Origin: a virus
Virus record (IMG/VR): IMGVR_UViG_3300021957_000244
Span: 1 to 26,609 of that record
DNA length: 26,609 bases
Direction: 5' to 3' (one strand)
Shown here: positions 2,264-25,615 of the stretch, piece by piece
Numbering within the stretch: position 1 is the stretch's first letter
Layout of the letters: each line of letters opens with the position of its first letter
Notes under the pieces: model-generated
What the model was told of the DNA's origin: nothing
Databases searched by the model: none
The model's input: only the letters and a program-made list of their open reading frames with translations
Program-made: the position numbers and the translations under genes

Positions 2264-2272
2264 TATTTAGTC
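2264..2272 (-). promoter_or_regulatory. Late promoter for the leftward zinc-ribbon operon
   Basis: The minus strand reads GACTAAATA, then five bases (ATAGT), then the ATG at 2258. This resembles the T4 late octamer TATAAATA. By the T4 spacing rule, transcription would start on the A of the start codon. A second minus-strand match, TATAAATA, lies upstream at 2291-2284. Confidence 0.65.
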
Positions 2273-2276
2273 ACGA

Positions 2277-2285
2277 GACTAAATA
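2277..2285 (+). promoter_or_regulatory. Late promoter for gp25
   Basis: GACTAAATA lies 13 bases before the ATG at 2299, predicting a leader of about 7-8 nt. That short A-rich leader (ending ACAAAAAA) contains no Shine-Dalgarno sequence. Confidence 0.6.
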
Positions 2286-2298
2286 TTTATACAAAAAA

Positions 2299-2784
2299 AT
2301 GGCAGTAAGATTAGATAACCTTAAATTGACCTCTATAGAGGAAAAGTCCCTCGAAAGTGGTTACTTGTATAAAGATATCAAGTTTGACTTGGATATGACT
2401 CGTTTTGGTAAGCCTGAGCTATACTCTAAGCAGACCCTTAAAGATCTTGATGAGTTACAAGACGGTCAATCTGTTATAAATGCTGTTAAGAATATACTTA
2501 CAACTACACCTGGTCAGAAGCTCCTTAACCCTACATTTGGTTTAGACTTTAGAAGCTATCTATTTGAGCCTATTAATACCACCACTGCATACTTCTTAGG
2601 TCAGTTTATCTATGGTAACTTAGGTGTACAAGAGCCTCGCGTTACATTAGAGGGAGTAACTATTGAGGGTATAGAAGATCAGAATCAATACAATATTGAG
2701 ATATCATTTAGTATTCCTAAACTTGATATCTATGATCTATCACTAAACGCCACCTTGAACAAAGATGGCTATGTTTTGGTTTGA
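2299..2784 (+). CDS. gp25: Baseplate wedge protein, T4 gp25-like
   Basis: 161 residues from the chosen start; T4 gp25 is 132. The core 'NAVKNILTTTPGQKLLNPTFGLDFRSYLFEP' region (quoted here only as its landmarks TTTPGQKLL, GLDFR and LFEP) is the signature of the GPW/gp25 family: repeat entry of an N-terminal helix, the Gly-x-Asp/Phe turn and the 'FEP' motif. gp25 joins the wedge to the tail tube/sheath initiation complex at the inner baseplate. An upstream in-frame ATG at 2245 exists, but it would overlap the divergent leftward gene and its promoter and add an unlikely N-terminus, so 2299 (MAVRLDN) is preferred. The next gene is gp6, the classic partner. Confidence 0.9.
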   Translation: MAVRLDNLKLTSIEEKSLESGYLYKDIKFDLDMTRFGKPELYSKQTLKDLDELQDGQSVINAVKNILTTTPGQKLLNPTFGLDFRSYLFEPINTTTAYFLGQFIYGNLGVQEPRVTLEGVTIEGIEDQNQYNIEISFSIPKLDIYDLSLNATLNKDGYVLV

Positions 2785-2794
2785 TAACTAAGGC

Positions 2795-2815
2795 TTATAG
2801 ATTAAATATCTATAA
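2795..2815 (+). repeat. Inverted repeat enclosing the late promoter and first base of the gp6 start codon
   Basis: TTATAGAT and ATCTATAA form a perfect 8-bp stem with the 5-base loop TAAAT. The last base of the 3' arm is the A of the ATG at 2815. An outer GC/GC pairing (2793-2794 with 2819-2820) could close over the rest of the codon as a bulge. RNA begun upstream could fold this; RNA begun at the local promoter could not. Confidence 0.75.
2801..2808 (+). promoter_or_regulatory. Late promoter for gp6
   Basis: ATTAAATA is followed by six bases (TCTATA) and then the ATG at 2815. T4-type spacing would place the transcription start one base before, or on, the start codon. Confidence 0.75.
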
Positions 2816-4656
2816 TGAGCTTAGAAGACTTCACAGACTACAAACTTCCTAAGAACGCATACCTTACGTTCGATGCAGATTCTCTTAAGAGTCTCATTAT
2901 TGAGCGTTTGAATGAGAACGAGACGTTTACGGATCAGAACTTCGAGGGTTCTAACTTTAGTGCGTTTATTGATGTTGTAGCATACATGTATCACGTTCTT
3001 CTCTTCCAGCTCAATACTACTTCGAACGAGTCTACCTTCGATACAGCTACTATCTATGAGAATATGAATAAGCTTGTATCTAACATTGGTTATAAGCCTC
3101 TTGGTGATCAAACCTCTCTTGTTAATATCTCTCTTTCAGCGGCTAACTTAGCTTCTAATGTTTATACACTTCCTCGTTACTCTACTATCACTGCTGATGG
3201 TACTACATTTGTAGCTACAGAAGATATTACATTTGAGAAGACTCTTGATACTACTATTGAAGAAGTTGCTGCATCAAACACTACTTTATATCAAGGTACC
3301 CTTACTGAAGCTACATTTAATGCTACCGGTGAGCCATATGAGAATATCATTCTTGTTGATAGCTTCACGTCTAAGCAATTTACGCAAAGTACTAAGAATC
3401 TTAACAGTACTAAGTTCATTAGTGATAACACCTTTAGTATATTTGTACAGAACAATGTAACTAGTGTATGGGATGAGTATACTGAGACTGCTTCTCTCTT
3501 CCTTGAGAATGCTGATGCTAAGAAGTTTGAGAAACGTCTTAATGCTTCTGGTAACTACGAGTTCAAGTTTGGTAATAATCTTAATGGTAAGCAGCTTAAC
3601 GGCAATGATACAGTTTTAATATTCTACGTTATATCTGATAACGAAGCTGGTGATGTTGGTCCAGGTGCATTCGTTGGTTCTACCTTTACTCTATATAGTT
3701 CAAAGGACTTCCTCGAAGTTAAAGACATTCTTTTTGACAATGATCAGACTATTGTAACAGCTGCTCAACTTACTGACCTTACTATTAACAATCCTACTGC
3801 ATCATCACCTACTAAGAAAGCAGAAACGGTTGATGATATTAGAACAAGTGCTCCGAAGGTATTTGCTTCTCAGAACCGTCTTGTAACTAAGGATGATTAC
3901 AGATATCAGATCAATAGAAACTTCAATAACATTACACGTGATGTTAAGATCCTCTCTAACGAAGATTACACATCCAAGGTACTTGCTTACTACAATGACT
4001 TAGGTCTCGCTAATGGTAACGATGATGCTCGTGTTCTTTACTCACAAGTTCAGTTCTCTACATCAACAAGCTTTAACAACGTATATGTATATACTGTACC
4101 TAATGGTAATCCTACATTGAATGGGTCTATTCCAAACTTCCTTAATGCTGCTCAAAAACAGCTTATCTCGGACTTCTGTGATAATAAGAAAGACATTACA
4201 CAAAACGTTGTTGTTACTGATCCAATCTTTAAGGCCTTTGCTTTCGGTGCTACTAGCCTTGGTAGTTCTTTTGCTACTGATGATACAATTGATGATATTG
4301 TTAATAACTCTAAGTTACGTATTACATTAGATAGAAACCAAGCAATCAACGATGGTGCTGTTAAGACTGCAGTATTCAATACATTTAACACATACTTTAA
4401 CAACGTACAGTTGGGTGATGTTATTGATGTAGCTGCTCTTACTAACGATGTTCTTAACATTCCAGGTGTTACAGCTCTTCACACAGTTAATGGTGATTCA
4501 GAGATAGCTAACCTTAGCTTTGCTGTATGGAATCCAGACTATAAAGATGAAGATCGTGTTATCCAATCTCTCAACTATCAGCTTGAAGATTTCCAGTTCG
4601 CTTATTTCTACAATCCACAGGATATAGCTAATAAGATTGAACTTCGTCGCTTGTAA
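2815..4656 (+). CDS. gp6: Baseplate wedge protein, T4 gp6/J-like
   Basis: 613 residues; T4 gp6 is 660. The N-terminus has the pattern expected of gp6/baseplate-J proteins. A helix 'SAFIDVVAYMYHVLLFQLN' is followed by a second, 'TIYENMNKLVSNIGYKP', where wedge proteins pack around the tube. The C-terminus has the 'LTNDVLNIPGVTALHT' turn typical of the family. In T4, gp6 dimers form the continuous inner ring of the baseplate. Position directly after gp25 supports the call. There is no Shine-Dalgarno sequence; initiation appears to be leaderless or nearly so from the promoter at 2801. Divergence from T4 is large, so the call rests on motif pattern and gene order rather than strong identity. Confidence 0.8.
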   Translation: MSLEDFTDYKLPKNAYLTFDADSLKSLIIERLNENETFTDQNFEGSNFSAFIDVVAYMYHVLLFQLNTTSNESTFDTATIYENMNKLVSNIGYKPLGDQTSLVNISLSAANLASNVYTLPRYSTITADGTTFVATEDITFEKTLDTTIEEVAASNTTLYQGTLTEATFNATGEPYENIILVDSFTSKQFTQSTKNLNSTKFISDNTFSIFVQNNVTSVWDEYTETASLFLENADAKKFEKRLNASGNYEFKFGNNLNGKQLNGNDTVLIFYVISDNEAGDVGPGAFVGSTFTLYSSKDFLEVKDILFDNDQTIVTAAQLTDLTINNPTASSPTKKAETVDDIRTSAPKVFASQNRLVTKDDYRYQINRNFNNITRDVKILSNEDYTSKVLAYYNDLGLANGNDDARVLYSQVQFSTSTSFNNVYVYTVPNGNPTLNGSIPNFLNAAQKQLISDFCDNKKDITQNVVVTDPIFKAFAFGATSLGSSFATDDTIDDIVNNSKLRITLDRNQAINDGAVKTAVFNTFNTYFNNVQLGDVIDVAALTNDVLNIPGVTALHTVNGDSEIANLSFAVWNPDYKDEDRVIQSLNYQLEDFQFAYFYNPQDIANKIELRRL

Positions 4657-4683
4657 ACACTTGCTCGGCGATTAAATAAGTGT
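4657..4683 (+). repeat. Short inverted repeat flanking the late promoter, abutting the ATG at 4684
   Basis: ACACTT and AAGTGT are perfect 6-bp arms with a 15-base loop that contains most of ATTAAATA. The 3' arm ends on the base before the ATG. It is weaker than the elements at 2795, 10251 and 18799. Confidence 0.45.
4671..4678 (+). promoter_or_regulatory. Late promoter for the 741-932-173 aa unit
   Basis: ATTAAATA, five bases (AGTGT), then the ATG at 4684. Predicted transcription start is the A of the ATG. The 36-bp block 4651-4686 is partly duplicated at 18790-18825. Confidence 0.75.
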
Positions 4684-6909
4684 ATGTCGCTAAGCTCTCT
4701 ACAACTTGATCAATCTGGTGAGTTTGATCTCTTGTACAATTTCTTCTATGTCAGAGATTATACTGGCACAGAGACCTATGAGTCTTATGCATTACCCTTC
4801 ACTCCTCTTACATTTGCACCTAACTTAGAGGATGGTATTGCTGACTTCGTTTCTAATAAGAGAGTAGTATGGGACTTTGGTGATGGTAGTACAACATCAG
4901 AAACGGTAACTGCTCAACATGCTTATGATAAGCCTGGTAGATATAAGGTTACTTGTTATCTCTATGATGAAGATGGTACGGGATACTTTGATACTTTTCA
5001 CTCTAAGGTAGAAATTAAAGACTTTATTGAAGATAAGCTTATCATTGATTCACCTACTGACATTGTTCACAATACAGGGGAGATTATCAATCCTATCACT
5101 ATTGAGAGATATAACTCTTTTCGTGTTGGTACACCTACTATTGTTGCTTACTCTTCTGGTGCTACTGATACAGATTTCTTTAGTAATGGTTATGATAAAG
5201 AGACTTATGGTCACCTTAAGCCATCTTCTTCCTTTGTACAAATCATAACTAGTAATGCAGTTGAGACATTAGATACTAATGTTATAACTACCATTGATAA
5301 GAAGATCTACATTAAGTTGGATGCTAATAACCAGATTGTTTATACAGATAAGAATGATGAAGATGCTTTCTTTGCTGGGTTAACTGGTACTGATGAAGTT
5401 TACTTTAGGAGTGATATTGTTGGTGACTATAACCTACTATTTGGCTTTGAACAAGGTAGTATATTTGATAATACTAATACTACAACTTATGGTGCTAATG
5501 CTTCTATCAATGAAAGTAATACGTATGCTAACTTAACTATTACATCAAATGGTATTGATAGTGAAGGTTACGATGGTAATACAATCTTTGATATTGGTAA
5601 GACTAAGTTTGCTGGTTCTAAAATTGCTTTTGTTGTTAAGGTCAAGGATGACTATAACAATACCCAGAAGAATATGCCATTGCTTAGCACTACAAATGCT
5701 TCTCTGGACTTAAGTCTTACTGATGGTATAACTTCTTATGATATTGAAGTAACCTCAAACTTCCAAGAACTCTCAACATTAAGTAAGGGTGGTTTCTATA
5801 AGGGATACTTCACTACTGATAATCAAACTACTTTAGAGAATGTTTACTTAAGTGCACATTCAGTTATTTCTGATTCGTTCAGACCATTCCATGAAGGTGT
5901 TAGTAATACATTTACTATCTATCCTTCTTCTTTCTATACAGTATCAAAGCAGAATGAGCAAATTGACTTTGAGGCAACATTTAAGGATATAGCTATACAA
6001 CCTCTCTTTAGTGATGCAAGAGTATTGATGAGTGACTTCTTAGGTTCTATCTTTGGTGATCTTTCCTCTACTCAAGACTCTGTTGGTAAAGCTACTTACG
6101 AGAAGATTCAAAACTTCTTCGATAACAACTCTACTATTGATGAGTCGAATATCGATCAACTTGATGGTATTCTTCAGTTACTTGATCTACCGGAACTTAA
6201 CAAATACTCACTTCCACCCAAGCTTGCGAGAGTTATGGATCTCCTTAGTATCTCCAAGTCTAAGCTGTTTGGACGAAGAAATAGAGACAATACACACTAT
6301 CAATCTTACGGATATAGGTTTAATGATTGTTATGGTGAAAACCTAGGAGATGCTCTATCAGCAGGTAGTAAAATTATTGTTGGTGAGCCTATTGTAGCTC
6401 ACGAAAAGTATAGTGGTGAGTTTATTACACTCAATACTAACCTACCTCTTAGTGCTTCAATAACACCAACCATCCAAACCACATCTGGATACATTTACGT
6501 TACTACATCTGGTGAGCTCTTATCTGCTGAGTCAGTTGAGTTGGATGAAGGTACTCAGATTGTACAGGAGCAACTTCCTAACTGTGATATCATTACTGAG
6601 AATGGATTACAGATTCTTACAGATGCTCTTTCATCACACTCTACTTTCTACTCATTAAGTGATTACAGCTCTACTTGGGGTTGGCCATTACTCTCAGGGG
6701 GTGGTAGAGATATCATGGACATCTACAACTTCTACTACCAGAGAGAAACTGTAGGTGACATTTCCGATTCTATCATTGATTGGACCGATCCTAATACAAC
6801 CATTTCTTATACTATGACCTCTTACGAAGATTGGTCTAAGAATAATGGTACAATGTCAAACATTTTTGCTCAAAGCCTTTACGAGGGCTTAGAACTCTTC
6901 GAAGATTAA
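4684..6909 (+). CDS. Large PKD-domain tail/baseplate structural protein
   Basis: 741 residues. Around residues 55-115 there is a PKD-type Ig fold, shown by 'VVWDFGDGSTTSE', 'HAYDKPGRYKVTCYLYD' and a closing strand. A middle beta-rich section is followed by a helical stretch near residues 440-540 with 'LPELNKYSLPPKLARVMDLLSI'. The C-terminus (about 640-741) is aromatic-rich. I cannot assign it to a numbered T4 protein; position after gp6 suggests a wedge or wedge-associated protein in the role of gp7 or gp8. It heads a unit whose later members have minimal gaps (4 bp and a 1-bp overlap) and no promoter of their own. Confidence 0.7.
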   Translation: MSLSSLQLDQSGEFDLLYNFFYVRDYTGTETYESYALPFTPLTFAPNLEDGIADFVSNKRVVWDFGDGSTTSETVTAQHAYDKPGRYKVTCYLYDEDGTGYFDTFHSKVEIKDFIEDKLIIDSPTDIVHNTGEIINPITIERYNSFRVGTPTIVAYSSGATDTDFFSNGYDKETYGHLKPSSSFVQIITSNAVETLDTNVITTIDKKIYIKLDANNQIVYTDKNDEDAFFAGLTGTDEVYFRSDIVGDYNLLFGFEQGSIFDNTNTTTYGANASINESNTYANLTITSNGIDSEGYDGNTIFDIGKTKFAGSKIAFVVKVKDDYNNTQKNMPLLSTTNASLDLSLTDGITSYDIEVTSNFQELSTLSKGGFYKGYFTTDNQTTLENVYLSAHSVISDSFRPFHEGVSNTFTIYPSSFYTVSKQNEQIDFEATFKDIAIQPLFSDARVLMSDFLGSIFGDLSSTQDSVGKATYEKIQNFFDNNSTIDESNIDQLDGILQLLDLPELNKYSLPPKLARVMDLLSISKSKLFGRRNRDNTHYQSYGYRFNDCYGENLGDALSAGSKIIVGEPIVAHEKYSGEFITLNTNLPLSASITPTIQTTSGYIYVTTSGELLSAESVELDEGTQIVQEQLPNCDIITENGLQILTDALSSHSTFYSLSDYSSTWGWPLLSGGGRDIMDIYNFYYQRETVGDISDSIIDWTDPNTTISYTMTSYEDWSKNNGTMSNIFAQSLYEGLELFED

Positions 6910-6913
6910 TACT

Positions 6914-9712
6914 ATGTCAGATACATCATTAAGAACAGTACTTGTTAAATATTCTATAACAAACTCTAACGAGATTGATTATAAGGATACTGTAGCTCCA
7001 TTCTCCTTCTTGGACTTCATTAACAATACTCAAGCTGACTACTCACCTGAAGAGTATAGTTCATTCTACTCTTCTTATCTTCAAGCATGGCATGCTAACC
7101 AAGGTGGTTCTGAGGAAGAACAAAAGACTCAGTTCAAAGATTACTACAGACAGTTCATTAAAGAGATTGTCGTTAACTATACTACAGAGACAGAGAAGAG
7201 ATTCCTTGAGAAGATAGACTTTAACGATCCAGCTGACTTGGATGTTGCTATTCCTTTCTTTGCTAACAGACTTAAAGACATTGCTCTATTCTATAAGAAG
7301 AAGCGTGATGAAGGTAAGTATGTTATTGATAGAAACAAGATGAAGGGTTCACAAACTGGACTCGAAAAGGCTATCTTTGATAACATTTACAACTTTATCT
7401 TTAACTCCGAAGATGCACTTGATACAGAGAATGATGAAGTGTTTAAAGCAGTTCAAGGTCTTGGTGTTGAGATTGAAGAGTTTGTTGATGTATATGGTGA
7501 CTACTTTGATGCTCCATCTACTGCTAATGGTAATAACATTAACGAGATAGATACCAAGTACTGGTTAGATCCAGAAGGTATTAAAGCCATTACTGGTGAT
7601 GAGAACTTTATTGGAGCTATTAGAACCTTTACAATCAACCCACCAGCTATTACTCCAGAAGAGTATGATGCTATTTGTAATCCAGATAACGACTTAGTTC
7701 AACTTTACAATCAATACAAAAAAGGTGGAATTCCTCTTAACGAGTTTTATGCATTAAAGAGAGCTCTTGTACAAAAGTATATTGGTACTGATGTATACTA
7801 TATTGATACATCAACTACACCTGCTACTTCAGGTTTAATGCTTGCTGCAGACAATCCTGCTGCTAATGCTCTTAACTTACAAGGTGCTGATACTGCAACT
7901 GTTCCAAGTAACGAGCAAAAGCTTCTACGTGATGTTGGTCTTAACTTCCAACCAGATGATATTGGTCTATTCAAGCTACAAGCTGAGACTTATAACTACG
8001 AGATTGACTCTGCTACATTAGCTAACAATACAGTTTACATTTTCCCTGATCCAGCTAAGTTTGGTAACGTATCAACTAATCCACAATCTAACTACCCTGT
8101 ATATTACAAGTTTGATCATCGTGGTAATACAAGAAACGTTTCTAGTGGTTATGCTGCTGGTGATCCAAAGACTACTAATAAGGTAACTACCTTTGAGTCT
8201 TATACTACAAAGGAACGTAACTCTACACAACTTAAAGATCTTAATGACATCAGTTATAAGATTAACTTTACTGATCTCTATAATGAAGGTCTTGTTGATA
8301 AGCATCAGACCGATGTATATGGTAATGAGTATGCTTTGTTCAAGTATGACCCTCTTAAGCCAAGAGAAGAAGATGTATCTAATACAGTTAAGAACCTTCT
8401 ACTCAATGGTCACTTATTCTTCGACCCATTTGAAGGTACCTCTTTCGATTATAGCTTAACTGGTCAAAATGGTAATACAGTTAGATCTGGTATGAGTACA
8501 CATACTAATGGATACTCTGCTCTTGAGGCATATGACCCACTTTGGTTGTATATGAGAGAGTTCTACCCTTACCAAGATCTCATCCAAGATTCAAGAAACC
8601 TAATTCCATTGTATAGAGATGGTGGTGCTCTTACTTTCCTTGATGGTAGAGAACTTCCTGATAATGCTAATGGAAACTCACATTACACAATCCTTGCTGA
8701 TGGTACCGTAGATCAAAGTGGAGCATTCTTCCCAGATGTTAAGTACTACCTTTCTGCTGGTATTGGTTATAAGGATTACGATGGTGGTTTCTTTACAGAC
8801 GATGTGCAACTTGCAAATGACTTTCTCTATGGTGATAACTTAAGATATGTTGACTCTACTGATGCAAGAGGAAGTACAATTCTCTCTAATCTCTCTTCAA
8901 GTGCTACATCTCTTACTACTGAAGAGAAAGCTACTTTAGATGGTACTCTATATGTTAAGAATGGTACATATTCTACATCAGAGAAACTCTCAGCTGCTCT
9001 CGAGCCTACAATCAGTAAATACTCTACTGCAGTTCAAGGGCAACTTAATCATGAGCTTGTAGATTTCGATATTATACAAAATACAATTTTCCTTGAGACA
9101 AGATCAGGTCTTCTTGTTGATAAGATTAAGTATGAAGGTGGTAAGTTCAACAAGCCATCAACAGTCAATACTTACTACCCAGCAAGTAGTGCAGATAACA
9201 CCGATTCCTTCACTAATAGATTCTACGTAGAAAAGACCGGTAAGATCTACTTCGGTAAGTTTAAGCAGGATGGTGAGTGCACAAATGATGCCGACAACTA
9301 CAAAGCTTACTACCCTGAGATTTACGAATACTCAATTGATACCAATAAGTCACGTTTGATCTACCCTCGTAAGGATGTTGGTAACTCCGTTAGTGACTTT
9401 GAGCTTAACGATGTTGATAATAGAATACGTAACTATGTTCCTACTTCTATTCATACTCCTAACATTGCATACAATAGCAGAAATGACATCTTCAAGTTGA
9501 CATACATTGCTAACGATATGAACGACTTTACTCACCTTGTTGATGTTACATTCAAGTTAATCGATAATACTTTAAGTGCTATTGACTCTAATAGGTATGA
9601 GACACTAAATAATATTGTACGTACAACTACATTTGGTGATGAGTCAAACTTCGGTTCTATCTCAGCTAATGGTGGTACCTTTACAAGGGATAACTTTACA
9701 CTTACAATCTAA
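6914..9712 (+). CDS. Large tail structural protein of unknown role, helical N-terminus
   Basis: 932 residues. The first 190 are helical and charged ('TETEKRFLEKIDFNDPADL', 'IPFFANRLKDIALFYKKKRD', 'KMKGSQTGLEKAIFDNIYNF'). This pattern I associate with long structural proteins next to gp6 in T4-like marine phages. The remainder is beta-rich with many Tyr, Asn and Asp residues, and the last 200 residues ('GKIYFGKFKQDGE', 'KLTYIANDMNDFTHLVDV') look like propeller or sandwich repeats. No catalytic motif is seen. The ATG lies four bases after the previous stop with no Shine-Dalgarno sequence. The stop overlaps the next start as TAATG, implying coupled translation. Confidence 0.7.
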   Translation: MSDTSLRTVLVKYSITNSNEIDYKDTVAPFSFLDFINNTQADYSPEEYSSFYSSYLQAWHANQGGSEEEQKTQFKDYYRQFIKEIVVNYTTETEKRFLEKIDFNDPADLDVAIPFFANRLKDIALFYKKKRDEGKYVIDRNKMKGSQTGLEKAIFDNIYNFIFNSEDALDTENDEVFKAVQGLGVEIEEFVDVYGDYFDAPSTANGNNINEIDTKYWLDPEGIKAITGDENFIGAIRTFTINPPAITPEEYDAICNPDNDLVQLYNQYKKGGIPLNEFYALKRALVQKYIGTDVYYIDTSTTPATSGLMLAADNPAANALNLQGADTATVPSNEQKLLRDVGLNFQPDDIGLFKLQAETYNYEIDSATLANNTVYIFPDPAKFGNVSTNPQSNYPVYYKFDHRGNTRNVSSGYAAGDPKTTNKVTTFESYTTKERNSTQLKDLNDISYKINFTDLYNEGLVDKHQTDVYGNEYALFKYDPLKPREEDVSNTVKNLLLNGHLFFDPFEGTSFDYSLTGQNGNTVRSGMSTHTNGYSALEAYDPLWLYMREFYPYQDLIQDSRNLIPLYRDGGALTFLDGRELPDNANGNSHYTILADGTVDQSGAFFPDVKYYLSAGIGYKDYDGGFFTDDVQLANDFLYGDNLRYVDSTDARGSTILSNLSSSATSLTTEEKATLDGTLYVKNGTYSTSEKLSAALEPTISKYSTAVQGQLNHELVDFDIIQNTIFLETRSGLLVDKIKYEGGKFNKPSTVNTYYPASSADNTDSFTNRFYVEKTGKIYFGKFKQDGECTNDADNYKAYYPEIYEYSIDTNKSRLIYPRKDVGNSVSDFELNDVDNRIRNYVPTSIHTPNIAYNSRNDIFKLTYIANDMNDFTHLVDVTFKLIDNTLSAIDSNRYETLNNIVRTTTFGDESNFGSISANGGTFTRDNFTLTI

Positions 9713-10233: not shown

Positions 10234-10236
10234 TTG

Positions 10237-10244
10237 TATAAATA
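10237..10244 (+). promoter_or_regulatory. Upstream late promoter of the 1103 aa gene (exact consensus)
   Basis: TATAAATA matches the T4 late consensus exactly. Predicted transcription start is near 10250, one base before the 5' arm of the hairpin at 10251. This RNA would carry the whole hairpin. Confidence 0.65.
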
Positions 10245-10250
10245 GACTTT

Positions 10251-10272
10251 GCCATTAAATATGTATAATGGC
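10251..10272 (+). repeat. Inverted repeat containing the start codon of the 1103 aa gene
   Basis: GCCATT and AATGGC are perfect 6-bp arms with a 10-base AT-rich loop. The ATG at 10268-10270 lies wholly within the 3' arm, and the proximal late promoter spans the 5' arm and loop. Confidence 0.75.
10254..10261 (+). promoter_or_regulatory. Proximal late promoter of the 1103 aa gene
   Basis: ATTAAATA, six bases (TGTATA), then the ATG at 10268. Predicted transcription start is on or one base before the ATG, so its RNA lacks the hairpin's 5' arm. Confidence 0.75.
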
Positions 10273-13200
10273 TAACATTTATACTCACTCTACAAGTGCT
10301 GTTGCGTTCCCTACTGCAGAGTATCAGGATAGGTATATCTCTGTCAATCAGTCACAATCCAACTTAGAGCAGGGATTCTTAGTTAACAAGATTGATGCAC
10401 TTTCTGGTGCTAAAGATAGCTCTATTAACAACTATAGTTCATACTATATCACAAATAGAGATAAGCTCACAAATTTCATATCCATCTCCTCATTAGAGGA
10501 AGATCAATCAACATCATTAGTTACAAGACTTGGTTTTGAGAGACCTGGTGATGCACCTGCTGAATACTTCTACATCTTCAAGAGCAACGAAGATGCTACA
10601 GATCAGCAAAAAGCACTTGGTATTCAACCATTAGAAAAGACAGGATTCTTCGAGAATAACTATTTCTTCGAGATTGAGGGTCTTAACAATAACCTTTGCC
10701 GCATTAAGCATAACAACGGTGTTTTTGACTTCTACTTAAACTTCAATGATACAAATGATACCAAATTTGTATTCTATCAGAACACGGATGATTATAAGAA
10801 CATTGATAGAGAGCAAGCTGATGTATTCCGCTACATTCTCGATGATGATGGTTATCTACAACTTTACAAGTTTCATGATTCCAAGCTTCAAGTTGTTGCT
10901 TTAAGTGGTAGTGAACTAACCTTACAACCTCTTTTATCTGGTGATCTTAACCGTGGTATTAATAACCTTATTCACGTTGACTATAACTTAGATCAAAACA
11001 AAGAGTTTATTAATAAGAGCTTTGCAAGTTACAATAGCTTTAAAACAACTAACCTTATACTCGATGGTGAGAATAGTAGTACTGATGAAGATGGTCAGTA
11101 TATGTTAGTTGCTAACTACAATTCTATCTCAGCTGATAGTTTTCCAGTTAACTACTTTGCTTTAGATACTAACCGCTCTGAGTTTAACTACGTTAAGCGT
11201 GGTTCTAATATGGTTGATAGTAAAGTTGGTCTTGGTGTTGATCCAAGAGAATACTACAATCTTGAGACTGGTGTTGATCAAGAAAAAGGTCTTAATAAGA
11301 TCAACCTTAACTATAGCTTTTATGATAAAGACGTGTACGTGGAAAATGGCAGTGATACTTACTTCACTGCTCCCTCTTCAATTTACCCCTATGCTAAGCT
11401 CAACATCAACGATTCCACTTTCGCTTTTAATGGTGCTTTCGCTGGTCCTACTCCTGTTTTAGCCGATAAGGTATTTGTTAAACGTAAGAATACTACCCAA
11501 TATGACAATGGTCGTTTTCTTTGTACTTGGTTAAGTGGTGGTACTCTTGGTGAGAAGGGATTATGGGTTGATCGTTACTATTACCCAGATAAGATTTCTA
11601 AGGAAGCTGCTCTTTCCGCTACTTCCTACTTTGATGCTTCTTTCATTGATAGTGTAGATGGTATTGATCTTGATGTATCTGACGCTGTTCTTAATAAAGA
11701 GAAGTTCTTCGATAAGAAGAGTGATGCTGCTATCACACCTAATACACGTGTTAAGTATGAGCGTATTGGTAATGCTGACATTCGTAAGATTGTAGAAAGC
11801 TCTACACCATTAGTATCAAGCTTTGATAGCTATACTACATCAAAGGTTGTTAGAGGTGAGACTGAGAATGTTTGTAATGAGTTTAATGGTACAGAGTTTA
11901 CCTTTGATGGTACTAACTTTGCATGCTTTGAGGTAGCTAAGCAAGTAGATGAGACTAAGAACTTCACTACAAGCTTTAACATGTATCTTGACCCTAACCA
12001 TAAGTATGGTTTTGCTCTTCTTGGTAATAACACTAACAGAGGATTTGGTATATTCCAAGACCAGACCGTTACACCATTTGTACATGTTGTTAGTGAGAAT
12101 ACCTTATACATTTACAACACCGACTTTACACTACGTAATAAGGTTGACTTCAAGACTAAGATTAAGAACGTATTTAAGAGAAGTGCACTTGATGACTATA
12201 TTGTTACTACAGCTGGTAACCTATTCTATAAGGTTAACTCACAAGGTAACAAGATTAAGTTAGAGTGTGGTACAGAGATTCTTGATTACTATGGATTCTA
12301 CGAAACCTATGATCATATTGACTTTATCTCTTCTGATCAAAAGGTAAGACGTTTCGATGTTGATACTTTCGATGTTACAGATCTTTCTGCAAGAGAGTTT
12401 GATGTTTATGAGAAAGAGTTTTGCTTATATGACAACGTTCTTGAGTATAACAATAACACGTATAAGCTTGTAGGTAAGAATAAGAACTGGGAGAATGACA
12501 ATACAGTATTCTACCAAGTATCTTCTTATATTGTTAAGCACAACCTCGATGATGCACCTGAGGCATTCCTTAAGGGTGACATTAAAGACTTTGTTGTAGC
12601 TGGTGATAAGATCTACGCTGTTAAGACTGATGAATATCACGTGTTCAATACTAGTGGTGTGTTTGAGCTTTCTGGTTCTCTTGCCAATGTAACAATACCA
12701 ACACAAGTAAGTGATATTACTACACTTTCAGGTGGTCAGTTTATTTCGGTTGATTGGGTTAACGAGTATGTTAATGGTAATCAAGTAACTTACCCAATCT
12801 TCCTTGCTGAAGGCTCTGATAAGAACTTGTATGGTATTAAAGGTTCACTTCCTACTTTATCAGCTACTGGTATTGATGGTATTCTTGCAAGTAACACTAC
12901 TGGTAAGAAGCTTACTAATTACAATACACTTACTCATAACTATGATGCTAAGTCTATTGACTTTAAGCTTACCTTAAGGAACTATCTTAATACCGAAGAT
13001 GTCCTTTCACAGAATATTGCCTTTGACCCATCTTCCTTCGAACCAGGTTTCTATAACTTTACTTATAGACTTGATACTAAACAAGGTAATGCTACTCTCT
13101 ATGTAAATGGCGTATTGTATGAGAACCAAACCTTCTCTCCAGGTAAGTACCTTATCCAAGATATCTTTAGTGATGAGTTCTTTATTGGTTCTGCTGGTTT

Positions 13201-13579
13201 CCAGAGTAACATGGATCTTTCTACTTACTTAAAGCAACCAGGATACTACTACAGTAAAGACCTTACAATAGCTAACCCATATATCTACAATGAAGCTATT
13301 GACACAGAACTCGTTTATGCTCTTTTCTTACTTGAGAAGAAGATAGATGATATTGTACTTTCTATACCTGCTGGTCAAAGAACATCCAAGACAGAGATTC
13401 AGCAGTTCTTCAAGTTTAACAGAACTAACTCTTCTAAGAACATCGATATTGTTGTTCGTAACCTTAAGATAACAGATGAGGTTGTTAGAGAGCAGATTAA
13501 GACCTCTATACTTGCTGAAGCTAATAGCTTTGCACCAGTTGGTGTTAAGATCAATGATGTAATTTTCAAAACGTATTAA
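10268..13579 (+). CDS. Giant beta-rich tail/fibre structural protein with LamG-like domain
   Basis: 1103 residues. About 560-640 looks like a ConA-like strand set ('FTTSFNMYLDPNHKYGFALLG'). About 640-870 has repeated short strands of propeller type ('IVTTAGNLFYKVN', 'FVVAGDKIYAVKTDEYHVFN'). About 890-1020 is a clearer LamG-like domain ('FYNFTYRLDTKQGNATLYVNG', trimmed here to its landmarks YRLDT and LYVNGVLY, then 'EFFIGSAGF'). The last 80 residues are helical and close with 'APVGVKINDVIF'. Family unknown; a baseplate-peripheral or fibre role is inferred from size, composition and neighbours. Translation probably starts on leaderless RNA from the promoter at 10254. Confidence 0.7.
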   Translation: MANIYTHSTSAVAFPTAEYQDRYISVNQSQSNLEQGFLVNKIDALSGAKDSSINNYSSYYITNRDKLTNFISISSLEEDQSTSLVTRLGFERPGDAPAEYFYIFKSNEDATDQQKALGIQPLEKTGFFENNYFFEIEGLNNNLCRIKHNNGVFDFYLNFNDTNDTKFVFYQNTDDYKNIDREQADVFRYILDDDGYLQLYKFHDSKLQVVALSGSELTLQPLLSGDLNRGINNLIHVDYNLDQNKEFINKSFASYNSFKTTNLILDGENSSTDEDGQYMLVANYNSISADSFPVNYFALDTNRSEFNYVKRGSNMVDSKVGLGVDPREYYNLETGVDQEKGLNKINLNYSFYDKDVYVENGSDTYFTAPSSIYPYAKLNINDSTFAFNGAFAGPTPVLADKVFVKRKNTTQYDNGRFLCTWLSGGTLGEKGLWVDRYYYPDKISKEAALSATSYFDASFIDSVDGIDLDVSDAVLNKEKFFDKKSDAAITPNTRVKYERIGNADIRKIVESSTPLVSSFDSYTTSKVVRGETENVCNEFNGTEFTFDGTNFACFEVAKQVDETKNFTTSFNMYLDPNHKYGFALLGNNTNRGFGIFQDQTVTPFVHVVSENTLYIYNTDFTLRNKVDFKTKIKNVFKRSALDDYIVTTAGNLFYKVNSQGNKIKLECGTEILDYYGFYETYDHIDFISSDQKVRRFDVDTFDVTDLSAREFDVYEKEFCLYDNVLEYNNNTYKLVGKNKNWENDNTVFYQVSSYIVKHNLDDAPEAFLKGDIKDFVVAGDKIYAVKTDEYHVFNTSGVFELSGSLANVTIPTQVSDITTLSGGQFISVDWVNEYVNGNQVTYPIFLAEGSDKNLYGIKGSLPTLSATGIDGILASNTTGKKLTNYNTLTHNYDAKSIDFKLTLRNYLNTEDVLSQNIAFDPSSFEPGFYNFTYRLDTKQGNATLYVNGVLYENQTFSPGKYLIQDIFSDEFFIGSAGFQSNMDLSTYLKQPGYYYSKDLTIANPYIYNEAIDTELVYALFLLEKKIDDIVLSIPAGQRTSKTEIQQFFKFNRTNSSKNIDIVVRNLKITDEVVREQIKTSILAEANSFAPVGVKINDVIFKTY

Positions 13580-15533: not shown

Positions 15534-15562
15534 CTTGTCCTTATAAATATATGTATGGCAAG
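15534..15562 (+). repeat. Imperfect inverted repeat around the late promoter and ATG at 15555
   Basis: CTTGTCC can pair with GGCAAG with one bulged T, enclosing TATAAATA and ending on the G of the ATG. It is a weak candidate for the start-codon-masking arrangement seen more clearly elsewhere. Confidence 0.35.
15542..15549 (+). promoter_or_regulatory. Late promoter for the collar/fibre unit (exact consensus)
   Basis: TATAAATA, five bases (TATGT), then the ATG at 15555. Predicted transcription start is the A of the ATG. Confidence 0.8.
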
Positions 15563-16169
15563 TAAATCATTAACTAATACCAACGTCTCAGAGACTTATG
15601 TTGGTGTTCTTCATGCTGAGGGTGCTCCTCTTCCAGCTTCTGGTAAAGCCGACATCTACGATGGATTTGGTAATAAGAGTGCTCTACAAGTAGGACGAGA
15701 AGGTAATGGGGTAGAAGTAAGTGGTACACTTGGTCCTAACTTTGCTGCAGCAATTGCAGATGTCATATATCCTGTAGGTTCATTGTTCTTCTCTAAAGAC
15801 AATAACAACCCAGGTTCTCGTATGGCTGGTACATCATGGACACAAGTTGCAGAAGGTCAATTTGTTGCTGGTGTTGGTACTGGTACAGACATTAATGGTA
15901 CTTCTCATACAGTAACAGCTGGTGATACAGATACATCAGGAGAGTATGGCCATACATTAACAGTTTCCGAGCTTCCAGCTCACACCCACCCCATTAAGAA
16001 CTCTTCTAAGCTTGGTAATGACGATAACATTAACTACTATGGTGATCATGGTAGTCCAAGTGGCTATCCTCAAAGTACGGATCTCTTACCTGACAATACA
16101 GGTGGTAATCAACCTCATAACAACCTTCCTCCAGCATTCGGTATGTATGTCTGGGAACGAACAGCTTAA
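15555..16169 (+). CDS. T4 gp10 C-terminal-like baseplate/fibre protein
   Basis: 204 residues. The N-terminal 60 residues ('GVLHAEGAPLPASGKADIYDG') resemble a virion-attachment segment. From about residue 73 the protein follows the gp10 C-terminal domain pattern: 'IYPVGSLFFS', 'NPGSRMAGTSW', 'GQFVAGVG', 'ELPAHTHP', then 'HNNLPPAFGMYVWERTA' at the very end. In T4, gp10 sits in the baseplate arm near the short fibres; in many phages this domain caps fibre or baseplate trimers. The His residues of 'PAHTH' are typical of the family and can bind metal at a trimer axis in related collar folds. First gene of a three-gene fibre unit. Confidence 0.85.
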   Translation: MASKSLTNTNVSETYVGVLHAEGAPLPASGKADIYDGFGNKSALQVGREGNGVEVSGTLGPNFAAAIADVIYPVGSLFFSKDNNNPGSRMAGTSWTQVAEGQFVAGVGTGTDINGTSHTVTAGDTDTSGEYGHTLTVSELPAHTHPIKNSSKLGNDDNINYYGDHGSPSGYPQSTDLLPDNTGGNQPHNNLPPAFGMYVWERTA

Positions 16170-17183: not shown

Positions 17184-17188
17184 TAATC

Positions 17189-18781: not shown

Positions 18782-18798
18782 TTTATCTCTTGTAAACG

Positions 18799-18826
18799 CC
18801 ATACACACGATTAAATAAGTGTATGG
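18799..18826 (+). repeat. Inverted repeat containing the start codon of the lectin-like gene
   Basis: CCATACAC and GTGTATGG are perfect 8-bp arms with a 12-base loop (ACGATTAAATAA). The ATG at 18823 lies inside the 3' arm and the late promoter lies in the loop. RNA from the local promoter would lack the 5' arm. Confidence 0.8.
18810..18817 (+). promoter_or_regulatory. Late promoter for the lectin/mucin-protease unit
   Basis: ATTAAATA, five bases (AGTGT), then the ATG at 18823. Predicted transcription start is the A of the ATG. The 18 bases CGATTAAATAAGTGTATG are identical to those at the 4684 promoter. Confidence 0.8.
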
Positions 18827-20157
18827 TATATCCAACTGGTCTCCCTGCCGATGCAGCTTCTATAGCTGTATTCGATGAAGGTATGTCTCCTGAATATGAT
18901 ATTACATGGTCATTTACTTATGAACTATCTAATACTACACCAGGTGATGAGATTGGCTTCTGCTTATTCCTTCAAGATGCTCTATCAGCATTAGTTGGTG
19001 GTGGTGTTGGTCCTGATGTTGGTTATACAGGTACAGATGATCTTGGTCTTAATGCCGAGCCTTTGCAAGGTAAAGTAGTTGGTGTAGGATTTGATACTTT
19101 AGGTGCATTTGGTTTACCTATCGATGATTATGGTAGTGGTGATACGAGAGATGGTCTTTCAGCTGTTAGTTTAAATGGTGTACATGTTAGAGATGCTGCT
19201 GGTAGTATTGTTTCTACTGAATCGGTATCAGCATTTGACCTTATTGAAGCAGGTAAGAAGACAGTTAGAGCAAGACTTGGTAACTATGGTAGGACATTAA
19301 CTGTAGACTATAAGTTACAAGGTCAAGAGTTCTTTACTCATATCCTTACTCAAGATGTTACTCTTACCTTTGATAGTTCTACAAGATATAGACCAGGTGT
19401 TTCCTTCGTTAAGCCTATTACTGCTGCTTCTGTAACTGGAGAGATTGTTGTTGATGGTTTTCACGTTGAAGGTAATCAAAATAGCATCAATGATGAAGAG
19501 TTAGCATTTACTCCAATTGTACCATTCACTAATAACACAGATGTTCTTGGTCCTGTACCTCAAGGTGTACCAGAGCAAGAAGATAAACCAGTACTCCCAT
19601 TCTTAGGTATGGAGCCTCATGTAGGTTGCCCAGATGGTTCTTGTGATATAGCTGTTAGTACAGCAGATGGCTTCTACCCTTCTACTTTCTTATACCAGAT
19701 GTCAGCATTTATTGGTGATGTTGAGACTTCTTGGTCAACTACCGGCGACCCATACCGCTTTATTATCACTCTTGATGGAGAAACTAAGCTTGATACAGGG
19801 TTTGTTGGTAATGCAGCATTCGATTACGAAGGTGCATCAAGATCTACATTCATTACCGGTATACTTTCATCAGCTAATCACGGTAGTTACCCAACTACCT
19901 CACTTGCTCCTGATGGTTACCCATATGTTAGTAGTACATTAACTACTGCTACAAGTTCATTCTATAAAGACTCTGATACATCAAGAGCTCTTGTTGAGGT
20001 ATACGAGCCTCTTTCATCATCTAACTGGGGCATTACTGTAGGTTGCCCATACTACACTCTCTCTTGCGGTGTTGAAGATGAGTACCTCTGCAGCTTAACC
20101 CAACAACATGAAACCCTTCGTAAGATTGTATTTACGAACTTAGATACCCTATATTAA
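18823..20157 (+). CDS. Legume-lectin-like (ConA-fold) protein with DTGFVGNAA domain
   Basis: 444 residues. Residues 20-215 resemble an L-type lectin: 'WSFTYELSN', '[14 protein letters not shown]', a Gly-rich turn, '[18 protein letters not shown]' and later strands. Residues 308-415 form a second module with landmarks '[10 protein letters not shown]', 'APDGYPYV', 'CPYYTLSC'. The next gene carries a diverged copy of this module. Several cysteines ([17 protein letters not shown]) suggest metal binding or disulfides in the particle. Probable virion-surface carbohydrate binding, inferred from fold pattern only. The stop is followed one base later by the next ATG, so the pair is probably made together. 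Confidence 0.75.
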
Positions 20158-20158
20158 A

Positions 20159-23100
20159 ATGGCCAGAGACTTAGTAACAGCACTTAATGATTCCGCATTC
20201 GCAGTAATTAACGGATATGATGCATCGACGGATAAGCCGATGTATAATAACTTTCCGGATGTTGATACATTAGAGAGAAATGAAGATAACTGGATGCATG
20301 ACCTCGTTGGTGCTACTGGTATTCCTCCTCTCAACAATAAAACCTTTCCAGGTTATGTTGATGGTGCTATCTATGGTGGTATTCTCTTAACACCAAGGCA
20401 TATGATGTTCACACGTCATGCTTTTGTCCAACCTAACTCGGTTATCTACTTCTACGGTAGAGACAATACTAAGTATACACGTACAATTACTCACACTGCT
20501 TCACCAGCTCCTACAGCTTCGAGTGGTGGTTATTCTCAAGCATATGGTGACTACTATATTGCACTTCTTGATAGTGATCTTCCTTCTGACATTGAGCCTC
20601 TCAAAGTTTTCCCACCTGATCTTTACAAGTACTTTAAACCATCAGAGTTTATCTCCAATACTAAGTGGTTTGGTTATCCTAATGATTGTACTTTTGTATC
20701 AACTGATCAAGAGGAGAAGTCTATACTACATAGAATCTCTACAATCGAATTTGGTGTAGCTACTGGAATGGGATTTGATTCTCACCCTGACGAGTTTAAT
20801 CAAGATGGTAATAGTAGCATCAACTTCTCTGCTCCATATGATAGCGACTTACAAGCTTGGTACGAGAATAAGATTGCTGGTGACTCAGGTTCACCTAACA
20901 TGGCTCTTATCGATGATGAGCTTATCTTCTTAGGTGTTACTTCAACTACAGGTGACTTTGATAGTATTACTAACCTTCGTTCTTATAATGATGTCAATAG
21001 AATGATTGTTAATGCTGATGCTTCAGCAGGTATTAGCACCGGTTATTCTCTTACTCAGTACAACATGGCTGGCTTTAAGCAATACAATATTACTGATAGA
21101 GAGTATACTTATATTGGTAATGATATTAGTAATGGAACGCTAATTCAATATCGTGGTAGTGTAACTGATCATAACAGCTATCACTACTCTATTCCTTATG
21201 CTGCTTCTTCTATTGTACGTACAGATCCTCGAGATAACTCACAGACATTCCTTAATGTAAATAGTATCTCTACAAGTACTCAAAAATGGGTTGGAGCTGC
21301 TTATGCATCTAACAAGCGTATCTATGCTGCACCGCATGCTGCTTACGGACCACTTATTATTGATACCACAGACCCAAGTAACGTTACTGTTGATACTATT
21401 AACGTGGGTTATGGTTTACAGACAAGAGGTATTGGTCTTCTTGATAACGGTAATGGTGTTGGTGCTGCATACTTAGCATCTTATAGTGGATCTGAGTCTA
21501 CTAAGAAGTTTACTTTCGATGCTGATGGTAATGAGTCAGCAGTTACTACTATTCCTTATACAGTACCTGAATCGGAGTTTGAAGATGATCGTTCAAATCA
21601 GTATGCAAATGATATAGCCAACTATCCTTTCATCTATCGTTCGTTCTGGGGTGCAGTTAATGGTGGTAACAATAAGATGTACGTTATACCTTATGGTTCA
21701 AGTCGTGTACAGGTTATTGACCTTAACGATGACTCGGTTTCCTTTATTAGTACAGAGCTTACAGGTCTTGCTGATATGGATACTTCTACTCCAGCAACAA
21801 CAGACTTCTTTTTCTTACGTTGTCCTCAATGGAACAAGTACAAAGGTGGTGTTCTTGCTTCTAATGGTTGTATCTACACACATGGTACTCATGCTCGTGG
21901 TGTTCTTAAGATTGATACGTCAAATGATACAGTAACTGAGGTACCTTATCCACATACTCTTGTACATTACATGACTGCTGGTTATACCGGTGCTGAAGAA
22001 GTACGAGGTGCATCATGGGGTAGACAATCAGCAAGTTTGTTCTCCGTATTAGGACCAGATGGTAAAGTTTATAACACACCTTGGAACCTTCCTTTCCAGA
22101 TCTCGATTGATCCTACGAATGACTCTATTGCTTACCAGGCTCTTAGTTCTGTTCTTGACGAAGATGCTTCTGGAGCTGACTTAGCTTGGTATACAGATGG
22201 TTCATTAATGAATCAGCAAATCTTTATGGCACCTGGTGAAGCAGATCGTGTTCTTGAGATTGGCTTTGATGGTTATTCACCAGCTGCTTACTCATCAGTT
22301 ACTCCATATAGTCCACCTGCTGTATCACCATCACAAACCGGTACACCAACTCCTACCGGTACAGGTACACCAACTCCTACACAGACTAATACACCAACAC
22401 AAACACCTACTAATGGTAATGTTGGTGTAACACCTACTCCTACAGCTTCTAATACTCAGACACCTACTCCACAAGCTACTAATCCAGTAACACCAACTGC
22501 TACACCGAGTAGTTCAAGAATTGTTTCACCTTCTCCAACACAGACAGGTACACCAACTAACACTCCTACAGGTACTGGTACTCCAACACCTACTCAAACG
22601 AAGCCAAACACTACTGGCACTCCTACTCCTACCATCTCACATACACAGACCGGTACTCCTACACCAACTCAGACACCAACAGTTACTCCTACTAACAACA
22701 ATGATCGTTGTGTAAGACTTACTTACGATGTTGAAGATGGACCAGATCGTTTCATTGTTAAGTATAAAGGTACTACTATTATCGATACTGGTTTTGTTGG
22801 TAACGCTGCTTATGTCTATGGTGGTTATAAGAGACAAGTCTTTGTTGATGCATTAGTTAAAGAAGGACTTGATTTCACTGGTACTACTCTTGCTGATGAT
22901 GGATATCCAGTTGTTGACACTGTTACAGAAGGGTTCAAAGAGTCTATTCAATCAATCTTTAATGAGACAGATGCTTATGTAACTATTCAATCACCTGTTC
23001 ATGATAAACCAGGTTGGACATATACTCTTAACTGTCCTATGATGTGTGTATCACCTACACCTACACAGACAGCTACACCTACTGGTACAAGTACACCAAC

Positions 23101-24733
23101 TCCTACACAGACATCAACTACAGCGTATGTAGCACCGTCTAATCCATCAGCTACTCCTACAGGTACAGCTACTCCGACCCCTACTCCAACGAGTACCCCT
23201 CAAGCTACTGTAACCTTTACACCGTCTCAGACATCTACTCCTACACCTACAGGTACTGCTACTCCAACAGCATCACCAAGTGTATCTCCTTCAATAAGTA
23301 ATACTCCAAGTGGTACTCCAAGTCCAAGTGTTACACCATCCCCGAGTGGTACACCTGCTTCTTCTTACTCTCCTTGCCCAAGTCCTTCGGTAACATCAAG
23401 TGTTACTCCATCTCCTACACCTTCACCGAGTAAGACACCAAGTCCGAGTCCTACTCCAAGTAGTAGTGGCTCTCCTTCACCTTCACCACCACCTTCACCA
23501 AGTGTGACACCAAGTGGTAGTGGTTCACCCTCACCAAGTAGCACTCCAGCTCCCTCACCATCAGGTACTCCTGCAGCAAGCAGCTCGCCTGATCCAAGTA
23601 GCACTCCAGCCCCGTCACCAAGTGGTACTCCAGCTGCAAGTAGTTCACCTGATCCAAGTAGTACACCGGCTCCTTCTCCGAGCGGTACACCTGCAGCAAG
23701 TAGCTCTCCTGATCCAAGTAGCACCCCGGCGCCATCACCATCAGGTACTCCAGCTGCGAGTAGTTCACCAGATCCTAGTAGTACACCAGCACCATCCCCG
23801 AGTGGTACGCCAGCGGCTAGCAGCTCTCCTGACCCTAGTAGTACGCCAGCACCATCTCCTAGTGGTACACCTGCGGCAAGTAGTTCGCCAGATCCAAGTA
23901 GTACGCCAGCACCATCTCCGACACCTACCCCATCACCAAGTCAGACTCCAACATATAGTCTTGTTAGTAACTTCTTTGCTATTAATGAAGGTGAGACGGT
24001 TGTTATAACTCTTACAACAACAGCTGTTGCTGATGGTACATTAGTTCCATATACAATCACTGGTATTGATGCAGATGACATTGCACAACCTTTAACTGGT
24101 AACTTTACAGTCAATAATAATCAAGGTGCGCGTTTCATTACAGCAGTTGAAGATAGTAAAACAGAAGGTACTGAGACAATGCTCTTAACTCTTGATGGTC
24201 CAGGTACGACTATTAGTGTTGCTATTATTGACTCATCAAGAGACCCATCACCTACACCTACTTCTTCACCTACACCGAGTGTTACTCCATCGGTTACACC
24301 AAGTAAGTCTCCGACACCAACTCCTACTCCAAGTACTTCAGCTCCAGGTTCAACAACATATAGTCTTACTTCTGACTTTAACGTTATCTACGAAGGTAAT
24401 AGTGTTACTGTTACCCTTAATACTACAAATGTTGCAGATGGAACAAACGTACCGTATGCAGTAAGTGGTATTAGCAGTGGTGATATTACTCAAGCTTCAA
24501 CAGGTAACTTTACCATTAATGGTGGTACAGATTCAGCTATCTTCTCTGCTGTTGATGATGGTATTGTTGAAGGTACTGAGACAATGAGAGTACAAATTAA
24601 TGGAGCGTTTGGTGACTTTATCGATATTTCTATTCTCGATAATCCAGTTGATCCAAGTCCTACACCGAGTCCTACACCAAGTGTTACTCCAAGTGCTTCA
24701 CTACCAGGTGGCACTCCTACACCTACTCCATAA
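20159..24733 (+). CDS. Giant mosaic virion protein: trypsin-like protease, propeller, mucin-like tracts, Calx-beta-like domains
   Basis: 1524 residues. Residues 1-290 read as a trypsin/chymotrypsin-fold domain: '[17 protein letters not shown]' with candidate His87, '[13 protein letters not shown]' with candidate Asp131, and GDSGSP at 241-246 with Ser243 followed by 'LIFLGVTST'. Residues 320-720 look like a beta-propeller ('[12 protein letters not shown]', '[13 protein letters not shown]'). About 718-848 is Thr/Pro-rich (GTPTPTQT repeats). Residues 851-963 repeat the DTGFVGNAA module of the previous gene. About 965-1264 is Ser/Pro/Thr-rich with a 20-residue repeat at 1127-1254. Two Calx-beta-like modules start at 1265 and 1400, each with 'EGTETM', and the tail ends in PTPTP. 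There is no signal peptide or membrane segment, so it is probably a particle protein. It could be a host-surface protease, a self-processing adhesin, or an inactive fold. Confidence 0.8.
22310..22700 (+). repeat. Degenerate Thr/Pro minisatellite (GTPTPTQT-type)
   Basis: Repeated ACACCAACTCCTAC-like and ACAGAC/GGTACA blocks encode GTPTPT and TPTQT units in an irregular order. The tract joins the propeller to the DTGFVGNAA module and is likely an extended, possibly O-glycosylated linker. Confidence 0.85.
23537..23920 (+). repeat. 60-bp in-frame tandem repeat encoding [20 protein letters not shown]
   Basis: Six full units and a 24-bp seventh. All full units encode exactly the same 20 residues, yet the DNA differs between units at many synonymous positions, including TCN/AGY serine switches (TCA versus AGT or AGC) that need more than one change. 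It lies in the Ser/Pro-rich stalk of the 1524 aa protein. Confidence 0.95.
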
Positions 24734-24736
24734 ATA
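24729..24736 (+). promoter_or_regulatory. Late promoter for the glycosyltransferase gene, overlapping the previous stop codon
   Basis: CATAAATA contains the TAA stop (24731-24733) of the 1524 aa gene. It is followed by six bases (TAAGGG) and the ATG at 24743. Predicted transcription start is on or next to the ATG. Confidence 0.7.
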
Positions 24737-24742
24737 TAAGGG

Positions 24743-25615
24743 ATGACTCCTATCGTTACTCTAACGACTATACCGTCGAGGCTTTCGTATGAAGGCAATG
24801 CGTGTAGTTTAAAAGACACAATTGCTTCGTTATTGAACCAATCTCATTCAGATCTTGAGGTGTGGTTGAATGTACCTTGGGTAATGGCAAGGGATGATGT
24901 TAGGTATGTTATACCTGAATGGGCATCTGAGCTTACAGAGAGTGATCCAAGGTTTAAGATCAATAGATGTGATGATCAAGGTAGTGCTACTAAGCTTCTA
25001 CCTACTCTTACCCTTGTTGATACCCCAGGTCAAGTCATTATTGTTGTAGATGATGACCATATATACCATGTAGACATGGTTAAAGAGCATCTTAGGCATA
25101 GAGAAACATGGCCAGAGTTTGCTATTGGTTATGATGGTCAACGATCACGTGATCCAGAGCATTCTGGTAGAGCATGTATCTTTGATGATCCTCGAGACCA
25201 TTGGTGTAGTGCACACGGCTTGAATATATACGTTGATATACTTCAGCATTACAAGTCAGTATCGTATACCCGTGGTATGTTTAGGAGAGACTTTAATGAC
25301 TTCTGGAGAGAGTATAAAATATGGTGTGATGATACAGTTATTGCTGCTTATATGAGTAAGCATAGAATACCAAGAGTAGTTCCTGCTGTTGAGAGTGAGA
25401 GACATCACAAAGACTTTACTCACGAAGAATGGCAACAAGCTTGTTGTAGTCCTACCTTTCCAGTTGATGGTAATACCTCTCATGAGCGTGAAGAAGGTTG
25501 TACAATACCAAGAGATCTTAATGAAGAAGATGATCTAAAGACTTTACTATACAAAGAGTATATTGATAAAGGGTATGATGATGTTGAACTTGCATCCATT
25601 GATGATGCATACTAA
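24743..25615 (+). CDS. GT-A-type glycosyltransferase with DxD motif
   Basis: 290 residues. The N-terminal strand 'PIVTLTTIPSRL' opens a GT-A nucleotide-sugar fold. 'DQGSATKLLPTL' (78-89) and 'QVIIVVDDDHIY' with Asp103-Asp105 (the metal/nucleotide DxD) match a family with 'GPATKLL' and 'VDDD-IY' landmarks that I recall from marine phages and microbes. 'WCDDTVIAAYMSKHRIP' (194-210) fits the later acidic motif. It probably transfers a sugar from a nucleotide donor in the infected cell. The acceptor is unknown; the Ser/Thr/Pro-rich protein encoded directly upstream is an attractive candidate, and lipopolysaccharide or another virion protein are alternatives. It has its own late promoter and a hairpin beyond its stop. 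Confidence 0.85.
   Translation: MTPIVTLTTIPSRLSYEGNACSLKDTIASLLNQSHSDLEVWLNVPWVMARDDVRYVIPEWASELTESDPRFKINRCDDQGSATKLLPTLTLVDTPGQVIIVVDDDHIYHVDMVKEHLRHRETWPEFAIGYDGQRSRDPEHSGRACIFDDPRDHWCSAHGLNIYVDILQHYKSVSYTRGMFRRDFNDFWREYKIWCDDTVIAAYMSKHRIPRVVPAVESERHHKDFTHEEWQQACCSPTFPVDGNTSHEREEGCTIPRDLNEEDDLKTLLYKEYIDKGYDDVELASIDDAY

Follow-up and report, generated by a model that had tools for sequence, protein, structure and literature searches.

In an uncultured marine relative of phage T4, promoters of the T4 late type lie directly before the start codons of the genes behind them, and we put at about 0.86 the probability that these are gp55-dependent late promoters that would yield leaderless mRNAs. 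The DNA analyzed, called the window here, is a 26,609-nt (26.6-kb) fragment of an uncultured virus (IMG/VR record IMGVR_UViG_3300021957_000244). It encodes two baseplate proteins of the T4 superfamily, gp25 and gp6, as identified by Pfam and PHROG profile matches, with its gp6 sharing only ~28% identity with cyanophage gp6. The genes concerned are:

1755..2258, minus strand: late-type gene, 167 aa, without family match; start codon at 2258
2299..2784, plus strand: gp25-like baseplate wedge subunit (Pfam GPW_gp25, 2.4e-9; phrog_261, 5.1e-22)
2815..4656, plus strand: gp6-like baseplate wedge subunit (phrog_219, 3e-39)
4684..6909, plus strand: large late gene, 741 aa, without family match
10268..13579, plus strand: large late gene, 1103 aa, without family match
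15555..16169, plus strand: tail/fibre-type protein (phrog_6465, 3.1e-19)
18823..20157, plus strand: late gene, 444 aa, without family match
24743..25615, plus strand: gene, 290 aa, with a weak glycosyltransferase-2 match (PF00535, 1.3e-4) just below the Pfam cut-off

Between the last two genes lies an open reading frame of 1524 aa (20159-24733) without Pfam or PHROG match, in a region where local GC reaches 51% and GC skew is strongly negative at 23-24 kb.

A sequence-only reading of this stretch had reported octamers of the T4 late type 5 or 6 nt before the ATG of seven genes, and these distances proved exact on recount. The TAAATA core, which corresponds to positions -11 to -6 in the late octamer of T4, is perfect at all seven, and all seven start codons are ATG. 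The gap between core and ATG is 5 nt at 2258 (minus strand), 4684, 15555 and 18823, and 6 nt at 2815, 10268 and 24743. The full TATAAATA consensus is found only at 15555, the other six sites deviating at -13 and/or -12:

2264..2271, minus strand: late octamer ACTAAATA, 5 nt before the ATG of gene 1755-2258
2801..2808, plus strand: late octamer ATTAAATA, 6 nt before the ATG at 2815
4671..4678, plus strand: late octamer ATTAAATA, 5 nt before the ATG at 4684
10254..10261, plus strand: late octamer ATTAAATA, 6 nt before the ATG at 10268
15542..15549, plus strand: late octamer TATAAATA, perfect, 5 nt before the ATG at 15555
18810..18817, plus strand: late octamer ATTAAATA, 5 nt before the ATG at 18823
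24729..24736, plus strand: late octamer CATAAATA, 6 nt before the ATG at 24743, overlapping the stop codon of the preceding gene

Of 18 gene starts in the window, 7 follow the core at a distance of 5 or 6 nt, against 0.054 expected and a maximum of 2 in 20,000 shuffles. The number of octamers in the whole window does not exceed chance (3 exact copies, 2.4 expected) and so carries no weight by itself; what departs from chance is their position. Virion genes behind late octamers include gp6 and the tail/fibre gene in the window, and tail sheath and tail tube genes in a related contig (G003).

In T4, the late octamer spans -13 to -6 (PMC1524935), about one helical turn upstream of the start and without a -35 element (PMC2988020). 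With the octamer at -13 to -6, +1 would therefore fall on the A of the ATG when the gap is 5 nt and on the base preceding that A when it is 6 nt, and the same prediction in the sequence-only reading agrees with the published T4 position (PMC1524935). From this promoter geometry, the 5' UTR of the late mRNAs is predicted to be 0-1 nt. Bacterial polymerases favor a pyrimidine at -1 and a purine at +1, and 103 of 105 sites with the 5-nt gap combine T or C at -1 with A at +1 (background pyrimidine-purine frequency, 26%); the initiator dinucleotide therefore points independently to transcription starting at the A of the ATG. The initiator is mixed at the 39 sites with the 6-nt gap: 19 are compatible with transcription from the base preceding the ATG, and 15 carry a pyrimidine immediately upstream of the ATG, consistent with a start on the ATG itself.

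Relatives of the window were collected as 80 contigs fetched with gp6 and 80 fetched with gp55 (the best 80 of 471 stretches), and spacings in the clade were counted in ten contigs, comprising the window and nine related contigs. A scan of octamer-to-ATG distances had been proposed earlier, with random spacing as the outcome that would speak against the idea; run on these relatives, it was not random. Counted without gene calling, TAAATA stands 5 nt before an ATG at 134 places versus 17 in the reversed-sequence control, and 6 nt before at 58 versus 24; all other spacings from 0 to 40 nt are near or under the control, none being comparably raised. With gene calls, 94 genes have the core at 5 nt, 39 at 6 nt, 17 at 7 nt, and at most 10 at any other distance. 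The gp55-centered contig set, whose origin partly overlaps that of the gp6-based set, gives 110 versus 23 at 5 nt. Among orthologues of gene 1755-2258, the 5-nt gap is kept in 62 of 64; a comparison of 31 non-redundant orthologues shows no variation in the six bases of the core or in the T at -1, and sites upstream of the octamer mostly differ, at 0.5-0.75. This invariance of the core, together with the -1 pyrimidine at 103/105 sites, supports the selection on spacing that had been suggested from the window. No strong -35 signal was found upstream of 144 aligned sites, which show a weak A/T bias at about -29 to -26.

Shine-Dalgarno (SD) 4-mers precede 5 of 144 late genes in the clade, against 7.1 expected, and no SD signal was detected in any of its gene classes. 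The earlier statement that the seven genes have no usable SD sequence thus holds near all seven, but the absence is nothing special to them, and we rejected it as particular evidence for leaderless initiation at these genes.

In the proposed mechanism, the host RNA polymerase, equipped with a gp55-like sigma factor of the phage, would read T4-type late promoters whose -10 octamer has been shifted next to the start codon. Transcription would begin on the A of the ATG where the gap is 5 nt, and on that A or the preceding base where it is 6 nt. The first gene of each late unit would then be translated from a leaderless mRNA with a 5'-terminal AUG, on which we infer that ribosomes load directly, while downstream genes in the unit would presumably be reached by reinitiation; many of them start at, or at most 12 nt from, the previous stop. 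Promoter element and start codon appear to have merged, such that a single short sequence would set both the RNA start and the protein start, and the layout offers a means of establishing the correct start codons in marine phages of this kind.

A gp55 homologue (phrog_234, 4.6e-23) is present in the related contig G009, where its gene adjoins gp47-like and helicase genes (assessed by eye). Relatives of gp55 occur in 471 candidate contig stretches and are ~70-100% conserved in the best 80 of these. No gp55 gene (phrog_234) was found on the window fragment or on 19 of the 20 sister fragments searched, the latter being partial, and their incompleteness could explain this absence.

Promoters of an early type are also found in the window:

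26417..26432, minus strand: early-type GGAACT-N4-TATAAT, 5 nt before the ATG at 26411
25929..25944, minus strand: early-type GGAACT-N4-TACAAT, 7 nt before the ATG at 25921
26213..26228, minus strand: early-type GGAACT-N4-TACAAT, 37 nt before the ATG at 26175, a leadered early gene

This GGAACT/TATAAT cassette has a gap of 4 in 31 of 32 cases, with many copies in a set of related loci (L081-L088), and the small genes that it serves, including 26411 and 25921 (both minus strand), look early by position and size. Among 97 loose matches, 55 have an ATG 5-7 nt past the -10 element, with a peak at 5-6 nt; the early-type promoters are thus mostly placed as the late ones are, close to the ATG. A third layout, with TTGA ~18 nt before TATAAT, is found at a few genes. 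In addition, many gp55 genes (L187-L266) have TTGAT at ~35 nt and a TATAAT-like -10 element a few nt before the ATG, a third layout near the AUG.

Leaderless spacing is dominant in the window and not universal, because the gp25 gene, second octamers at two genes, and the early gene at 26175 (minus strand) deviate from it. The octamers in question, none of which the sequence-only reading had listed, are:

2278..2285, plus strand: octamer ACTAAATA, 13 nt before the gp25 ATG at 2299
2284..2291, minus strand: second octamer, perfect TATAAATA, 25 nt before the ATG at 2258
10237..10244, plus strand: second octamer, perfect TATAAATA, 23 nt before the ATG at 10268

The 13-nt distance at gp25 predicts a leader of ~8 nt, and the gp25 octamer lies at 12-14 nt in 43 of 66 orthologues. 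Positions 2278-2291 form a palindromic TAAATATTTA, made of the overlapping divergent octamers of gp25 and of the leftward gene 1755-2258.

The second octamers at 2258 (minus strand) and 10268 could yield a leadered transcript, and some genes might accordingly have dual promoters, an upstream octamer for a leadered mRNA and a near octamer for a leaderless one, differing in timing or proportion. Octamers at 5 and 25 nt for the former gene and at 6 and 23 nt for the latter fit such an arrangement, and the upstream octamer is kept in many close orthologues of 1755-2258. It is seen, however, at only two of the seven genes; distances of 23-26 nt are not enriched across the clade when counted without gene calls; and the upstream copy at 2258 overlaps the opposite-strand gp25 promoter within the palindromic TAAATATTTA, which can itself account for its retention. 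We consider dual promoters rather unlikely, although they remain the best placed of the alternatives.

Another explanation is that TAAATA-N5-ATG is a translation-initiation context, in which an A/T-rich sequence recruits ribosomes in an SD-free host and the true promoters lie further upstream. The clade has no SD signal, so another initiation signal could exist, and at two of the seven genes a perfect octamer also lies 23-25 nt from the ATG. A ribosome signal would be needed just as much by packed genes, which follow closely on the previous stop, yet the motif precedes only 17 of 210 such genes in the clade, compared to 99 of the 244 genes whose upstream region is free (1.4 expected). Because it marks free-upstream genes far more than packed ones, the motif is better read as a promoter than as a ribosome signal, while about one third of the clade genes with their own upstream region have no recognized promoter at these positions. 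The early-type genes, moreover, have TATAAT at nearly the same place, and the common factor is therefore a -10 element; distant orthologues (e.g., L045 and L079) keep the 5-nt octamer without an upstream one. A translational role for the motif is thus very improbable. Misassigned start codons, with a downstream codon in use and the octamer serving an ordinary leadered mRNA, deserve hardly any credence: the start codons are predictions, but protein similarity and codon-pattern divergence set in right after the ATG in gp6, 4684 and 10268, where divergence in codons 2-15 is biased to third positions as expected of real starts, and the independently deposited starts of phage HTVC008M show an equal 5-nt spacing.

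Late promoters abutting the start codon differ in layout from those of the best-known relative. In the textbook case, late transcription in T4, the mRNAs carry leaders and SD sites. The clade shares with T4 the TAAATA core at -10, the lack of a -35 element, virion genes downstream and a gp55-like sigma factor, but the octamer of T4 peaks 23-29 nt before the ATG with an SD sequence in between (65% of T4 genes have one), whereas that of the clade lies at 5-6 nt without an SD. Cyanophages S-PM2 and Syn9 also differ from the clade, having no octamer at 5-6 nt and most at least 15 nt away, and these whole-genome, gene-level counts for T4, S-PM2 and Syn9 led us to reject the 5-6-nt layout as a general property of T4-like phages. 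Among the remaining reference records, where counts are small, most do not show the 5-nt pattern clearly above the reversed control.

Two cultured phages do share TAAATA at 5 nt. In the Pelagibacter (SAR11) phage HTVC008M, 11 starts have it at exactly 5 nt, compared to 0.38 expected, and none at 6 nt; in the annotated stretch these genes include tape measure, DNA end protector, head closure, tail tube cap and baseplate genes, and the deposited starts match. The genes at 6280, 7562, 11972, 18943, 19456, 31132 and 49760 are examples with the 5-nt octamer. An SD-like sequence precedes 18% of the 5-nt genes of HTVC008M versus 55% of its other genes. In pelagiphage Mosig, TAAATA lies 5 nt from an ATG at 11 places versus 3 in the control. 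Both phages encode ribosomal protein bS21, which a search of the clade's contigs did not find, and HTVC008M also differs from the clade in its use of SD sequences elsewhere (55%). The bS21 genes found (L268 and L269) are those of HTVC008M and Mosig, the two cultured phages with 5-nt late spacing. As a general cause of the layout, phage bS21 was rejected, having not been found on 29 contigs of the clade and gp55 relatives. Leaderless translation in infection is testable in the culturable pair of HTVC008M, which carries bS21, and Pelagibacter HTCC1062. A 2020 study using cyanophage methods failed to find late promoters in pelagimyophages (PMC7029224), and the layout described here may explain why such cyanophage-modeled searches failed.

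We propose, tentatively and at less than even odds, a widespread uncultured lineage of the T4 superfamily whose genes are largely expressed without leaders or SD sequences, with early- and late-type promoters abutting the AUG; pelagiphages would have reached the late layout separately, with bS21 maybe tuning ribosomes to leaderless late mRNAs.

Leaderless phage mRNAs and -10 motifs adjacent to open reading frames are already known. The host phylum of Thermus phage phiYS40 is rich in leaderless genes, and the late promoters of this phage are, to our knowledge, not of the gp55/octamer type. Its middle and late transcripts are mostly leaderless, as summarized in a review (PMC3594737, citing Sevostyanova 2007), and late mRNAs of the present clade are predicted to resemble them in this. 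In Deinococcus-Thermus, a -10 motif a few bp before the open reading frame drives leaderless genes and its spacing is required (PMC12340547), but that system differs in using a host sigma factor, a TANNNT motif and cellular genes. Our literature search, outside which most subscription papers lay, returned no description of T4-type late promoters on start codons.

As for the host, contig G003 encodes a DUF1549/DUF1553 protein and a DUF1501 protein as a gene pair (L086:12151-15094), the first member of which is preceded by a late octamer at 5 nt. Cellular matches to DUF1501 are mostly from Verrucomicrobia and Planctomycetes metagenome-assembled genomes (MAGs), at ~30%, and some Verrucomicrobia are SD-scarce (PMC10783764). 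From this one contig, a host in the Planctomycetes/Verrucomicrobia superphylum may reasonably be inferred. In MAG fragments of these two groups, cellular genes are too few and too GC-rich for a -10-adjacent pattern to show.

Two further observations concern the related 80-kb contig G001. Near its end is a gene for a full-length, RpoD-like sigma-70 with regions 1.2-4 (L097, G001:77823-78725), either a phage gene or an assembly join. Its terminase region (G001:38032-43737) contains several extra open reading frames, the terminase frame being seemingly interrupted after a Walker A-like motif, and may hold an intein or a homing insertion.
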